The notes under the pieces: model-generated
Told to the model about the DNA's origin: nothing
Databases searched by the model: none
What the model saw: the letters and a program-made list of their open reading frames with translations, nothing else
Made by a program: the position numbers and the translations under genes
Part shown: positions 19,522 to 40,187 of the stretch, in pieces
Numbering within the stretch: position 1 is the first letter of the stretch
Layout of the letters: each line of letters begins with the position of its first letter
NCBI RefSeq assembly: GCF_005048265.1
Contig: NZ_SUNH01000010.1
Span: 62,001 to 126,000 of the forward strand
Length of the DNA: 64,000 nucleotides
From: Paracoccus hibiscisoli
GTDB lineage: Bacteria; Pseudomonadota; Alphaproteobacteria; Rhodobacterales; Rhodobacteraceae
Direction of reading: 5' to 3'

Positions 19522-21203
<1,682 letters not shown>

Positions 21204-21207
<4 letters not shown>

Positions 21208-36164: not shown

Positions 36165-37520
36165 TCAGACGGCGGCCGAATGCCCCCCTTCGGGGGCGGC
36201 ATAGGCGTCCAGCGCCTGCGCGATTAGCCGCGTCAGGGGGCGTGCCTCGGGCGGGATGACCAGCGCGCCGTCGCGCAGTGCGACCGCCGGGCCGAACCGG
36301 TCCAGCAGGGGTGCCAGAATGCGGGACTGCTGGTCCGGGGTCAGGCCGAAGCGCGCCTGGATATCGGCGGGGTCGATGCGGAAATCGCACATCAGCGCCT
36401 CGATCATGCGGCCGCGCCAGCCGTCCTCGGGGCCGAAGGCATGGCCGCGCGTCACCGGCACGCGACCCGCGCGCACCGCCGCCAACCAGGCCCCGGTCGC
36501 GGGCGCGTTCTGCGCATAGCCCTGCGGATAGCGCGAGATGGACGAGGCCCCCAAGCCCAGCAGAACCTCGGCCCCGTCATCGGTATAGCCCTGGAAGTTG
36601 CGCCTGAGCCGCCCCTGATCGGCGGCCCGCGCCAGACCGTCGCCCGGCCGCGCGAAATGGTCGATGCCGATCTGGCGGAACCCATCATCCAGGAACAGCG
36701 CCCGCGCCGTGTCGAACAGCGCCAGACGCGCCTCTCCGTCGGGCAGCGCGGCCTCGGGGATCATCACCTGCCGCCGCGACATCCACGGCACATGCGCATA
36801 GCCGTACAGCGCGACCCGGTCGGGCGACAGCGCCAGCAGCTTTTGCACCGTATCGGCCATGCGCGCGCCGGTCTGATGCGGCAGGCCATAGAGGATGTCG
36901 GCATTCAGCCCGGCAATGCCGTGATCGCGAATCAGGTCGACCGCGCGGGCGGTCAGCGCAAAGCTTTGCGGGCGGCCGATGCTGTCCTGGATCTGGGGGT
37001 CGAAATCCTGCACCCCGACCGAGGCCCGCGTCATCCCGGCCTGCACCAGCGCCGCCATGCGGGGGGCGTCGATCTCGGACGGGTCGATCTCGACCGAGAA
37101 TTCGGCCCCCTCGCGGAACGGGAACGCCGCGCGGATGGCATCGGCCAGCCGGGCGATCAGCGCGGGCGTCAGCAGCGTGGGCGTCCCCCCGCCCCAATGC
37201 AGCCGCGACAGCGTGATGCCCTGCGGCAGCCGGGCCCGCAGCTGGCGCAGCTCGGTCAGCAGCGCCTGGACATAGTCCGCCACCGGCTTGAGGCTCTGGG
37301 TGCCCTGCGTGCGGCAGGCGCAGAACCAGCACAGCCGCCGGCAGAACGGCACGTGCACATACAGCGACACGGGCGTGCCGGGGTCCAGTACCTCCATCCA
37401 GCTGCCGACCACGGTGCCGTCCACCGTGGGGCGGAACTGGGTCGCGGGCGGATAGCTGGTATAGCGGGGGGCCCGCGATTCAAACAGGCCCGTTCGTCTC
37501 AGTTGCGAAAGATGTTCCAT
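36165..37520 (-). CDS. hemN: oxygen-independent coproporphyrinogen III dehydrogenase HemN
   Basis: Radical SAM enzyme that makes protoporphyrinogen IX without oxygen in haem synthesis. The cluster motif is C60-x3-C64-x2-C67 (FCRRLCWFCACR), after the family's PRYTSYPPATQF and YVHVPFC. 451 residues. ATG 37520 fits the family start; the frame extends 10 codons upstream. It is divergent from fnrL, and an FNR box lies 36-49 bases before its start, consistent with anaerobic activation as shown for hemN/hemZ in Rhodobacter. Confidence 0.96.
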   Translation of the reverse strand: MEHLSQLRRTGLFESRAPRYTSYPPATQFRPTVDGTVVGSWMEVLDPGTPVSLYVHVPFCRRLCWFCACRTQGTQSLKPVADYVQALLTELRQLRARLPQGITLSRLHWGGGTPTLLTPALIARLADAIRAAFPFREGAEFSVEIDPSEIDAPRMAALVQAGMTRASVGVQDFDPQIQDSIGRPQSFALTARAVDLIRDHGIAGLNADILYGLPHQTGARMADTVQKLLALSPDRVALYGYAHVPWMSRRQVMIPEAALPDGEARLALFDTARALFLDDGFRQIGIDHFARPGDGLARAADQGRLRRNFQGYTDDGAEVLLGLGASSISRYPQGYAQNAPATGAWLAAVRAGRVPVTRGHAFGPEDGWRGRMIEALMCDFRIDPADIQARFGLTPDQQSRILAPLLDRFGPAVALRDGALVIPPEARPLTRLIAQALDAYAAPEGGHSAAV

Positions 37521-37540
37521 GCGGCTATCACTGGGACAGG

Positions 37541-38311
37541 ATGCGCACACCTGCCTTGACCCAGATCAACACGACGGATGCAGGGCATGGTGACATGCAC
37601 TGCGAGGACTGCCCCATCCGCTATCGCGCCGTCTGCGCCCAATGCGAGGGCGATGAACTGGCGACGCTGGAGCAGATGAAGTTCTATCGCAGCTATCAGG
37701 CCGGGCAGCCGATCATCTGGGAAGGCGACCGGATGGATTTCGTGGCCTCGGTCGTGACGGGTGTCGCCACGCTGACCCACACGCTGGAGGATGGGCGCAC
37801 CCAGATGGTGGGCCTGCTGCTGCCAAGCGATTTCCTGGGCCGGCCGGGGCGCGATCAGGCGGCCTATAACGCGACCGCCACCACCGATGTCGTGCTGTGC
37901 TGTTTCCGGCGCAAGCCCTTTGACCAGATGATGCGCCAGACCCCGCATGTCGCGCATCGCCTGCTGGAGATGACCCTGGACGAGCTGGACGCGGCGCGCG
38001 AATGGATGCTGCTGTTGGGCCGCAAGACCGCGCGCGAAAAGATCGCCTCGTTCATCGCCATCATCGCGCGCCGCCAGGCCGCGTTGCACAAGAGGCGCCC
38101 CGGCGGGCGGATGCAGCTGGACCTGCCCCTGACCCGCGAGGCGATGGCCGATTACCTGGGCCTGACAATCGAGACCGTCAGCCGCCAGATCACCGCCCTG
38201 CGCCGCGACGGCATCATCGAGATGGTCGGCAAGCGCGAGGTGACCCTGCCCGATTACGACCGCCTGGTCGAGGAATCGGGCGATGACAGCGACGGCGGCA
38301 CGCTGTCCTGA
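37541..38311 (+). CDS. fnrL: Fnr-type oxygen-sensing regulator FnrL/FnrP
   Basis: CRP/FNR-family regulator with an oxygen-labile [4Fe-4S] cluster, active without oxygen. N-terminal cysteines C21, C24, C32, C35 and the central C120/C121 supply candidate ligands; the helix-turn-helix (about 199-226) keeps the E-x2-S-R DNA-recognition residues (E211, S214, R215). 256 residues from the first ATG. An FNR box overlaps codons 6-10, so the true start may be ATG 37595 (MHCEDCPIRYRAVC), which keeps all cysteines. Homologues in this family commonly have about 10-15 residues before the first Cys, which favours the long form. Confidence 0.93.
   Translation: MRTPALTQINTTDAGHGDMHCEDCPIRYRAVCAQCEGDELATLEQMKFYRSYQAGQPIIWEGDRMDFVASVVTGVATLTHTLEDGRTQMVGLLLPSDFLGRPGRDQAAYNATATTDVVLCCFRRKPFDQMMRQTPHVAHRLLEMTLDELDAAREWMLLLGRKTAREKIASFIAIIARRQAALHKRRPGGRMQLDLPLTREAMADYLGLTIETVSRQITALRRDGIIEMVGKREVTLPDYDRLVEESGDDSDGGTLS
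37556..37569. promoter_or_regulatory. FNR box between hemN and fnrL
   Basis: TTGAC-CCAG-ATCAA fits the FNR consensus TTGAT-N4-ATCAA with one mismatch. Centre 37562.5 is about 42 bases upstream of the hemN start codon and within the 5' codons of the longest fnrL frame. It could activate hemN and/or autoregulate fnrL. Confidence 0.75.
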
Positions 38312-38364
38312 GGGCCGCGCGCCCCGGCTTTTCATCCTGGCACCGCTCTGCTAACAGGCGCCTT

Positions 38365-38400
38365 CCCGGTCGCAGCCTACCCGGGTCACAAAAACAAGGG
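38365..38400 (+). ncRNA. preQ1-I-like riboswitch in the queC leader
   Basis: A 5-bp stem CCCGG / CCGGG (38365-38369, 38381-38385) closes an 11-base loop TCGCAGCCTAC, followed by an A-rich tail TCACAAAAACAAGGG. This matches the minimal preQ1-I aptamer known from Thermoanaerobacter (loop beginning TCGCAG, tail ACAAAACAAGG) almost base for base in the conserved parts. Loop CCT can pair with AGG of the tail to make the H-type pseudoknot. The tail's AAGGG is also the only ribosome site for queC, 7 bases before its ATG, so ligand binding should block translation of queCDE. Confidence 0.8.
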
Positions 38401-38407
38401 TCACAGA

Positions 38408-39115
38408 ATGAACACCACTCTCGTCTGCTCGGGCGGGCTGGACTCCGTCTCGCTTGCCCAAGTCCTGGCCGCGCAGGGTCGCCTGTCGCGGATCGTCAGC
38501 TTTGATTACGGCCAGCGCCACCGCAAGGAGCTGGATTTCGCGCGGGCCTGCGCGACGCGCCTTGCCGTGCCCTTTCACCTGGTCGATCTGTCCGGCCTGG
38601 GGGCGGCGCTGTCGGGGTCGGCGCTGACCGATGATCTGGCCGTGCCCGATGGCCATTACGCCGAAGAGACCATGCGCGTCACGGTCGTCCCCAACCGAAA
38701 TGCCATCATGCTGACCGTGGCCTTTGGCATCGCCGCGGCCAATGGCGACACGGCGGTCGCGGCGGCGGTCCATGGCGGCGATCACTTCATCTATCCTGAC
38801 TGCCGCCCGGCCTTTACCGACGCCTTTGCCGCCATGCAGCGCGCGGCGCTGGACGGCTATGCCGATGTCGCGCTGGAGGTGCCTTTTGTCCATGCGACCA
38901 AGGCCGATATCGTGGCGGCGGGGGCGGGTGCCGGGACGCCCTTCGCGCAGACCTGGTCCTGCTACAAGGGCGGCGCGCGCCATTGCGGGCGCTGCGGCAC
39001 CTGCGTCGAGCGGCGCGAAGCATTCCACCTGGCGGGCGTCGCGGACCCCACCGATTACGACGACGCCGATTTCTGGCAGGCGGCGGTCGCGGCCCATGCC
39101 GCAGGGGGGGCGTGA
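38408..39115 (+). CDS. queC: 7-cyano-7-deazaguanine synthase QueC
   Basis: Converts 7-carboxy-7-deazaguanine to preQ0 with ATP and ammonia, in queuosine biosynthesis. PP-loop SGGLDS (8-13), VVPNRNAIML motif, and four zinc cysteines near 185-200 (SCYKGGARHCGRCGTC). 235 residues. First gene of a tightly overlapping queC-queD-queE operon (TGATG to queD). The leader carries a preQ1-I-like element that should respond to pathway product. Confidence 0.96.
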   Translation: MNTTLVCSGGLDSVSLAQVLAAQGRLSRIVSFDYGQRHRKELDFARACATRLAVPFHLVDLSGLGAALSGSALTDDLAVPDGHYAEETMRVTVVPNRNAIMLTVAFGIAAANGDTAVAAAVHGGDHFIYPDCRPAFTDAFAAMQRAALDGYADVALEVPFVHATKADIVAAGAGAGTPFAQTWSCYKGGARHCGRCGTCVERREAFHLAGVADPTDYDDADFWQAAVAAHAAGGA

Positions 39116-39468
39116 TGTTCCGGATCAGCAAGGAGTTCCACTTCAGCGCCTCGCATCGGCTGGACCACCTGGCCCCCGACCATCAATGCGCGCGGCTGCA
39201 TGGGCACAATTACATCGTTGTGGTCGAGCTGGCGGCTGCGGATCTGAACAGGGACGGCTTCGTGCGCGATTATCACGAGCTGGCGCCGCTGAAGGCCTAT
39301 CTGGACGAAAGTTTTGATCACCGGCACCTGAACGACGTGCTGGACGTGCCCTCGACCGCCGAGAATCTGGCGCGCCACCTGTTCGACTGGTGCCGCGCCC
39401 GCTGGCCCGAGACCAGCGCCGTCAAGGTCAGCGAGACGCCCAAGACGTGGGCGGAATACCGGCCATGA
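39115..39468 (+). CDS. queD: 6-carboxy-5,6,7,8-tetrahydropterin synthase QueD
   Basis: Second step of preQ0 synthesis from GTP via dihydroneopterin triphosphate. Zinc ligands H14, H29, H31 (RLHGHNY) and catalytic C25 are visible. 117 residues. The ATG shares a base with the queC stop; the longer upstream frame lies inside queC and is spurious. Confidence 0.95.
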
Positions 39469-40187
39469 AACCGCCCGAAAGACCCTTGCGCATCGCCGAG
39501 ATCTTTGGCCCGACCATCCAGGGCGAGGGCGCGCTGATCGGCCAGCCCACGGTCTTTGTGCGGGCGGGCGGTTGTGATTATCGCTGTTCGTGGTGCGATT
39601 CGATGCATGCGGTGGACAGCGCCTATCGCGACAGCTGGGCCGCCATGGATGCGGCGCAGGTCTGGGCGCGGGTGCGCGAGCTGTCGGGGGGCCGGCCGCT
39701 GACCGTGTCGATCTCGGGCGGCAACCCCGCGATCCAGGATTTCGGCCCGCTGATCGCGATGGGCCGGGCCGAGGGATACGCCTTCGCGCTGGAGACGCAG
39801 GGCTCGATCGCGCGGGACTGGTTCGCGCAGCTGTCGGTCCTGGTGCTGAGCCCCAAGCCCCCCTCCAGCGGCGAGCGGCCCGATTGGGCGGCGTTCGACG
39901 CCTGCCTTGCGGCGGGGCAGGGGGCGGGGGCCGTGGTGCTGAAGATCGTGGTCTTTGACGACGCCGATTATGCCTGGGCGCGCGCGGTCGCGGACCGGTA
40001 TCCGGGGCTGGACCTGGTCCTGCAACCGGGCAACCCCGAGGTCGATCCCGACCTGCCGGTGGCGGCGCAGGACGTGGCCGACCGACTGCTGTGGCTGGTG
40101 GACAAGGTCATGGCAGAGGGCTGGTTCCGGCCAAGGCTGCTGCCGCAGCTGCATGTCCTGCTGTGGGGCAACAAGCGCGGCGTCTGA
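39465..40187 (+). CDS. queE: 7-carboxy-7-deazaguanine synthase QueE
   Basis: Radical SAM ring-contraction enzyme. Cluster cysteines C37-x3-C41-x2-C44 ([11 protein letters not shown]), and the substrate region [10 protein letters not shown]. 240 residues. ATGA overlap with queD. A hairpin repeat starts one base after the stop. Confidence 0.95.

Follow-up and report, generated by a model that had tools for sequence, protein, structure and literature searches.

The window, a 64-kb stretch of Paracoccus hibiscisoli DNA, carries on its plus strand the genes queC, queD, and queE, each scoring above the cut-off of an NCBIfam equivalog family (Table 1). The genes are arranged such that the start of queD overlaps the stop of queC and the start of queE overlaps the stop of queD. 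The genome also encodes queF, tgt, and queA, so that preQ1 can go on to tRNA. The operon lies directly downstream of fnrL (NF045989), which is divergent from hemN on the minus strand (36165-37550), the gene of the oxygen-independent coproporphyrinogen III oxidase; the two genes together span 36165-38311.

The leader between fnrL (37541-38311) and queC features, on the plus strand, the architecture of a preQ1-I aptamer, in which the loop of a short P1 hairpin forms pairs with the 3′ tail and an A-rich L3 bridges the two. The L1 loop UCGCAG is that of Thermoanaerobacter tengcongensis (Tte) and is free of the features that mark the two other types—three additional pseudoknot-loop bases in type I and a pyrimidine-rich loop in type III (PMC10622847, in excerpt, as are all published sources cited here)—so that the aptamer has the hallmarks of type II. 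Its P1 of 5 bp falls inside the range of 5 to 6 bp of the solved preQ1-I members (PMC10622847). The specificity C, the L1 U, and the L3 A expected at the ligand, whose contact roles are described in the excerpt of PMC10622847, are all invariant in alignment A1, which consists of 33 distinct leader sequences. The tail CAAGG serves as the 3′ side of P2 and, at the same time, as most of the Shine–Dalgarno sequence (SD). A sequence-only reading of this locus had pointed to a small stem, a loop starting with TCGCAG, and an A-rich tail as in Thermoanaerobacter, to an overlap of the tail with the ribosome site of queC, and to a queCDE context. All three hold: L1 and the tail are identical to those of Tte, the tail CAAGG, which ends 8 nt ahead of the ATG, overlaps the SD at 38396-38400, and the three genes have equivalog matches.

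Upstream of the aptamer, a promoter-like signal is apparent across a set of 144 distinct flanks, of which two stem from chance matches in phage contigs, with T enriched at −38 to −36 and A/T at −15 to −13 from the CGG of P1. Since this signal stands at a fixed distance upstream, a short 5′ UTR is suggested.

Table 1. Features of the queC leader, the operon, and the second copy of the element (window coordinates unless stated otherwise)
Feature	Position	Strand	Remarks
Promoter-like stretch	38329..38356	+	Inferred; places the transcript start a few bases ahead of P1
Leader sequence CCCGG-TCGCAG-CCTAC-CCGGG-TCACAAAAA-CAAGGG	38365-38400	+	Followed by TCACAGA and the queC ATG at 38408
preQ1-I aptamer (H-type pseudoknot, type II-like)	38365..38399	+	Predicted from sequence, RF00522 as top family, Tte-like L1 and tail, 109/110 queC leaders
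P1 5′ strand CCCGG	38365..38369	+	Pairs with 38381-38385
L1 TCGCAG	38370..38375	+	Identical to Tte; no variation across A1 (33 sequences)
5′ side of P2, in L1	C38373, G38375	+	Equivalents of Tte C9 and G11
L2 CCTAC	38376..38380	+	A and C invariant in A1
A in L2	A38379	+	Equivalent of Tte A14; role from PMC10622847
C in L2, ligand specificity base	C38380	+	Equivalent of Tte C15; role from PMC10622847
P1 3′ strand CCGGG	38381..38385	+	Partner of 38365-38369
L3, A-rich, TCACAAAAA	38386..38394	+	Expected across the P1 minor groove; length tracks P1 length (125 distinct aptamers)
P2 3′ side CAAGG	38395..38399	+	C38395 with G38375, G38398 with C38373; invariant in A1
queC Shine–Dalgarno AAGGG	38396..38400	+	Overlaps the aptamer tail; 7 nt between SD and ATG 38408
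queC, 7-cyano-7-deazaguanine synthase	38408..39115	+	TIGR00364, above cut-off
queD, 6-carboxytetrahydropterin synthase	39115..39468	+	TIGR03367, just above cut-off (90.1 vs 89.25)
queE, 7-carboxy-7-deazaguanine synthase	39465..40187	+	TIGR03365, above cut-off
Second copy CCGG-TCGCAG-CCCAC-CCGG-TCAAAA-CAGGAGC	G000:C46:200028-200063		Same genome, six bases before queF

Rfam scores and distribution of the element

RF00522 (PreQ1) ranks first among 4227 Rfam families at 38300-38480, with 19.3 bits and an E-value of 0.063 over all families, which by arithmetic corresponds to approximately 1.5e-5 for RF00522 alone in 181 bases and to approximately 0.005 over 64 kb. Taken by itself, this score is suggestive. 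The curated gathering cut-off of the family is 39 bits—a detection threshold that stands outside the biological definition of the class. No PreQ1 match reaches the gathering level in the 64-kb window, the whole genome yields none at E 0.001, and none of 20 further loci (19 motif-bearing queC loci and the queF locus L134) exceeds the RF00522 cut-off. The queF leader of the same genome again has RF00522 as its top family, at 15.4 bits and below the cut-off. The queC element, hence, falls outside RF00522 in its curated form despite having the architecture of the preQ1-I class, and the threshold is suggested to hide a clear clade. The sequence-only reading had named the lack of a significant covariance-model score as evidence against a riboswitch; this applies by half, since RF00522 comes first but misses the 39 bits. 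The only match of the window at Rfam gathering level is RF02514 (5′ ureB sRNA; 20769-21058, plus strand, 88.8 bits). It lies opposite the gene of the urease alpha subunit (19522-21207, minus strand) and, for this reason, is probably a signal of the coding sequence and not an RNA of its own.

That the queC-leader element is more than chance is settled, on sequence grounds, by its conservation before queC. The motif CGG-TCGCAG-CC[TC]AC-CCG followed by AAAACAAGG is carried by 109 of 110 queC loci, with 7–11 nt from AAGG to the start codon; L048 is the sole locus of the 110 without it. These loci comprise 30 from the genus (the one of the window included) and the best 80 of at least 578 in named genomes; some species are present twice, and the number of distinct leader sequences is 71. 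The hosts are mostly Rhodobacterales, for example Paracoccus, and include the Hyphomicrobiales Fulvimarina, Maritalea, and Tianweitania as well as a record titled Agrobacterium. The locus L071 comes from a record with an actinobacterial name, Nocardioides marinus. Its 800 bases around the queC start are the same, letter for letter, as those of L220 in G619, which belongs to the family of Paracoccus hibiscisoli itself; given this identity, the record is probably misnamed or mixed.

Two covariance models were run at E 0.01 in samples of increasing breadth: R1, built from 33 distinct leaders, and the wider R2, built from 50 matches. As both were trained on such leaders, the location of a match is informative rather than its existence. 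Weak matches are lost in scans of more than 40 genomes, for which the filters were stricter. A match lies directly upstream of 38 of 39 queC in the genus sample (101 genomes), the exception being the queC of G020. All 78 matches are found in the leaders of queuosine genes, namely queC or queF; 77 could be assigned directly, and the last one (G011) precedes queF at a longer distance, 78 nt from the gene match. Thirty-nine of the 72 queF have a match of their own at 5–8 nt from the gene match, 14 more are located close behind an aptamer-bearing queC, and 19 have neither. Two matches, one before queC and one before queF, occur in 23 of the 101 genomes, where one ligand would gate both the supply and the use of preQ0.

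The order sample (292 genomes) features a same-strand match at 5–11 nt from the gene match for 62 of 62 queC, as defined by an E-value of 1e-50 or better. The remaining 19 of its 81 matches consist of 13 before queF, two upstream of queF in the queC-less genomes G530 and G552, one preceding an apparently broken queC (G685), and three weak ones unrelated to que genes. Thirteen genomes of the class sample (385 genomes) have a match—eight before queC and five weak ones not before a que gene. In the phylum sample (299 genomes), matches occur in 10 genomes, nine of them Alphaproteobacteria; seven of these nine are new, and in all seven the match precedes queC. The tenth is weak and lies outside the class (L255, G865; same phylum, other class): it scores 25.5 bits and has a UCGCAG loop and a AAAAACAAG tail, with no que gene seen downstream. 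Poor conservation in relatives, which had been named beforehand as an argument against a riboswitch, is clearly contradicted by these counts (109/110 loci, 62/62 queC of the order sample, 78/78 matches of the genus sample).

The score alone does not separate chance matches from genuine ones. Eight matches of 23–29 bits (L126, L127, L128, L130, L131, L133, G747, and G499:C5) were judged to be chance because of this low score and because the longest frame that begins shortly downstream does not resemble queC or queF by eye, with approximately 90 downstream bases inspected for G747 and G499:C5; L125, L129, and L149, which stand before queC or queF, also score 24–29 bits. The matches judged to be chance are retained in the tallies. 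A scan of viral contigs with the exact 17-base core returned four stretches. Two of them (L156 and L159) do not precede queC. L158 agrees with the Fulvimarina locus L036 in every one of 600 bases. The fourth, L157, has a length of 6.3 kb and contains frames like queC, queD, and queE, next to others that by eye resemble ribonucleotide reductase and a cyclase; it may be bacterial rather than phage.

Within the wider family of queC, the distribution is uneven. Among 15 relatives of at least 58% identity (the queC of the window included), eight carry the motif by eye, one (L200, G367) has a divergent form with a CCUG/CAGG P1, four (L197, L199, L202, and L203) lack the motif by eye, and L195 and L201 are counted in neither group. 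In 15 more distant queC leaders (L204–L218), the motif is absent by eye; the class-wide reading of queC leaders covered 30 of 52 genomes. Judging by its presence in close relatives and its absence from the 15 distant ones, the element is tied to one queC subfamily and not to queC as a whole.

The second copy in the genome of Paracoccus hibiscisoli precedes a gene for a QueF of 153 amino acids (TIGR03139, 145.4 bits vs a cut-off of 86.9). QueF converts preQ0 to preQ1, and the step of queC makes preQ0 (PMC10622847, Figure 1 legend). Since queC and queF are non-homologous genes of one pathway, an element common to both is hard to explain except by regulation. The genome contains a yhhQ homologue as well; its leader shows by eye no such element, and yhhQ was rejected as a third target.

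Losses and relics of the element are found beside the intact copies. Eight of the 19 queF leaders without a match were read, and six of these (L181, L182, L185, L186, L188, and L189) have no trace of it; divergent forms may be present among the other 11. In the queF leader of G020 (L174), the AAAACAGGAGG tail is kept and P1, L1, and L2 are absent: the aptamer has been lost naturally here, with the Shine–Dalgarno sequence left in place; the queC of this genome (L155), which has no aptamer, is divergent, with 66% identity. In G011 (L154), G530 (L225), and G552 (L261), a queC-type aptamer lies upstream of queF, its tail does not overlap the start of this gene, and no queC was found. The element is, thus, useful but dispensable, given the 19 of 72 queF that are unlinked (G011 has an aptamer further upstream) and the aptamer-free queC of G020. 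Such losses and relics—queF without the element, an aptamer left after loss of queC—form a series for studying the gain and loss of a switch.

Covariation and length coupling

In A1, 100% of the scored P1 cells are standard pairs. The outer pair of P1 varies between AU (13), CG (9), UA (7), GC (2), and GU (1), with a gap in one row; the row set aside is L105, which has T-T at this pair, and the other 108 of 109 loci are standard. The covariation score of the outer pair amounts to 0.191 vs 0.031 in shuffled alignments and at most 0.044 with the partner slid. Two of five covariation measures are not above the shuffles in A1, namely the count of pairs changed on both sides and the count of pair types, and in A2, a wider alignment that was fitted to the model, the covariation score is nearly reached by the slid control (0.099 vs 0.127). 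The second pair of P1 changes from CG to GC once in A2, in a Paracoccus queF leader, and GCGG/CCGC recurs before queC in other genomes, in a total of seven leaders (L262, L266, L268, L269, and L271–L273). The remaining P1 pairs are nearly invariant, and the covariation rests on these two pairs of P1. The P2 pairs are present in 33 of 33 rows of A1 without variation; P2 is supported by its identity to Tte. Conservation extends to approximately 30 nt upstream of the SD in A1.

A further structural signature is a coupling of lengths between P1 and L3. It was counted in 125 distinct aptamers that follow the strict core pattern and stem from loci found by models or homology; many are related, their kinship is uncorrected, and the divergent L200, G638, and G739 are outside this count. 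A fifth P1 pair is present in 85 of 86 aptamers with a long L3, vs 39.1 expected from base composition, and in 6 of 39 with a short L3, vs 9.7 expected. The split persists within the set of CAAGG tails alone (85/86 with a long and 3/14 with a short L3) and is therefore not just one of queC against queF. As L3 must span P1 in an H-type pseudoknot, a short L3 goes with a short P1. Neither a DNA operator nor an ordinary ribosome-binding site predicts such a coupling. Most aptamers of the short form, before queF and some queC, fall outside the P1 range of 5 to 6 bp, and, since the solved members keep to this range, the form with a 4-bp P1 and a short L3 looks like a structural variant.

Folding energies lend no support, with z-scores of 0.88, 0.65, and 1.33. 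The best fold contains P1 for the queC region (z 0.88) and for the queF leader; in a short queC construct, P1 is not formed, and the GGGT of the SD is instead paired to ACCC. Minimum-energy folding was, hence, discarded as support: the z-scores are uninformative or slightly against, and the programs ignore pseudoknots.

Three divergent queC leaders stand beside these alignments. L289 (G739) features a UCGAAG loop and a CAGG tail, L290 (G638) a CAUGG tail, and L200 a UCGUAG loop in addition to its altered P1. They are useful for finding which positions matter.

Proposed mechanism and rival explanations

The queC leader is best read, with a probability of roughly 0.93, as a type II-like preQ1-I riboswitch that would act on the translation of the queCDE mRNA. 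The interpretation as a preQ1-I riboswitch had already been proposed from the letters of the window and finds support in the conservation before queC, the copy before queF, and the covariation of P1. In the proposed mechanism, a build-up of the ligand fills the pocket between P1 and P2. The specificity base C38380 would read preQ1, P2 would close, and the AAGG of the tail would be locked against L1 and hidden, so that the 30S subunit is kept from starting queC. Because of the overlapping gene ends, queD and queE probably fall along with queC. At queF, whose product is preQ1, the ligand would restrain its own last step in addition to the supply of preQ0.

The identity of the ligand is less certain than the class of the riboswitch. 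Within the same fold, preQ0 could be the physiological ligand and provide direct product feedback on queC, the preQ0-making step (PMC10622847). For the Tte aptamer, with which it has L1 and the tail in common, the loss in binding is only 17-fold for preQ0 (PMC10622847), so that some response to preQ0 is possible. However, the element also precedes queF, including the queF of queC-less genomes, and feedback by preQ0 at this preQ0-consuming gene would block preQ0 use. This favors preQ1 as the main ligand, and preQ0 in its place appears unlikely, if by no means far-fetched.

Explanations other than a riboswitch have to account for the same features and are far less probable. A DNA operator, conserved as the binding site of a transcription factor between the promoter and the start codon and forming an inverted repeat by chance, would agree with the near-invariant inverted repeat of the core (CCGG...CCGG) close to the promoter-like signal, and symmetric changes of an operator would mimic covariation. 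Against it, all 62 of the 62 queC matches share the strand of the gene and lie within 5–11 nt of it; L1 and the tail, neither of them part of the repeat, agree with those of an RNA aptamer of solved structure; and the joint change of P1 and L3 lengths is not required of a DNA site. An operator is, on these grounds, very improbable. Slighter still are the chances that no regulation takes place and that queC has nothing more than a long and highly conserved ribosome-binding region. The conserved tail is indeed the Shine–Dalgarno sequence, but conservation reaches far upstream of it, the outer P1 pair covaries, the same element stands on the non-homologous queF, and the match of L1 to Tte would have to be chance.

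Relation to known preQ1-I riboswitches

The kind of element, preQ1-I, is already known, and the queC copy is closest to type II as represented by Tte. The two share the L1 UCGCAG, the specificity C, the L2 adenine, an A-rich L3 of 9 nt, and a P1 of 5 bp, and the Tte tail AAAACAAGGG is identical to that of the queC copy (Tte sequence from the excerpt of PMC10639078). The Tte tail includes the first bases of the SD, so that the ribosome is occluded directly (PMC10907184). The queC copy differs from Tte in the sequence of P1, in an L2 that is one base longer, and in the host group; the queF copy differs in its CCGG/CCGG P1, its short L3, and its CAGG tail.

The riboswitch of the Bacillus subtilis queC operon belongs to the same class and controls the same gene (PMC10639078, PMC10907184). 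It uses a transcription terminator, whereas the tail of the Paracoccus copy is the SD and the 5′ UTR would be little more than the aptamer, which would leave little room for a terminator-type expression platform. The type III riboswitch of Escherichia coli is, like the queC copy, proteobacterial and translational, with an AAGG tail that is the SD; it differs by its pyrimidine-rich loop in place of UCGCAG, its long variable linker, and its control of yhhQ (PMC10622847). Sporadic cases in gamma-Proteobacteria are mentioned by a survey of 2007 (PMC2258182, in excerpt). For an alphaproteobacterial preQ1-I riboswitch, no description was found in the open-licence literature as far as its excerpts go, in agreement with the sequence-only reading, which was aware of none in Paracoccus-like bacteria; the survey McCown 2014, cited for the three types and outside that scope, and Roth 2007 may list examples. 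From its one window, that reading was right on the queC element; the queF copy, the spread through Rhodobacterales and some Hyphomicrobiales, and the short form were beyond its view.

On balance, Alphaproteobacteria would seem to carry a preQ1-I branch of their own that comes in two geometries, one combining a P1 of 5 bp and a long L3, the other a P1 of 4 bp and an L3 of 6 nt. The short one would rank with the smallest RNAs in nature that bind a metabolite, and in this branch one ligand would gate preQ0 supply and use. If this holds, Paracoccus, Ruegeria, Sulfitobacter, Leisingera, their relatives, and some Hyphomicrobiales gain a riboswitch that is unreported by Rfam, and feedback on queuosine precursor synthesis extends across a large alphaproteobacterial group. 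The short form on queF spans approximately 29 nt from CCGG to CAGG, next to a natural sequence of 36 nt studied for the Escherichia coli type III riboswitch and an engineered 30-mer that still binds (PMC10622847), these lengths being given with and without flanks and thus not strictly comparable. It would offer a natural minimal aptamer for structural work.
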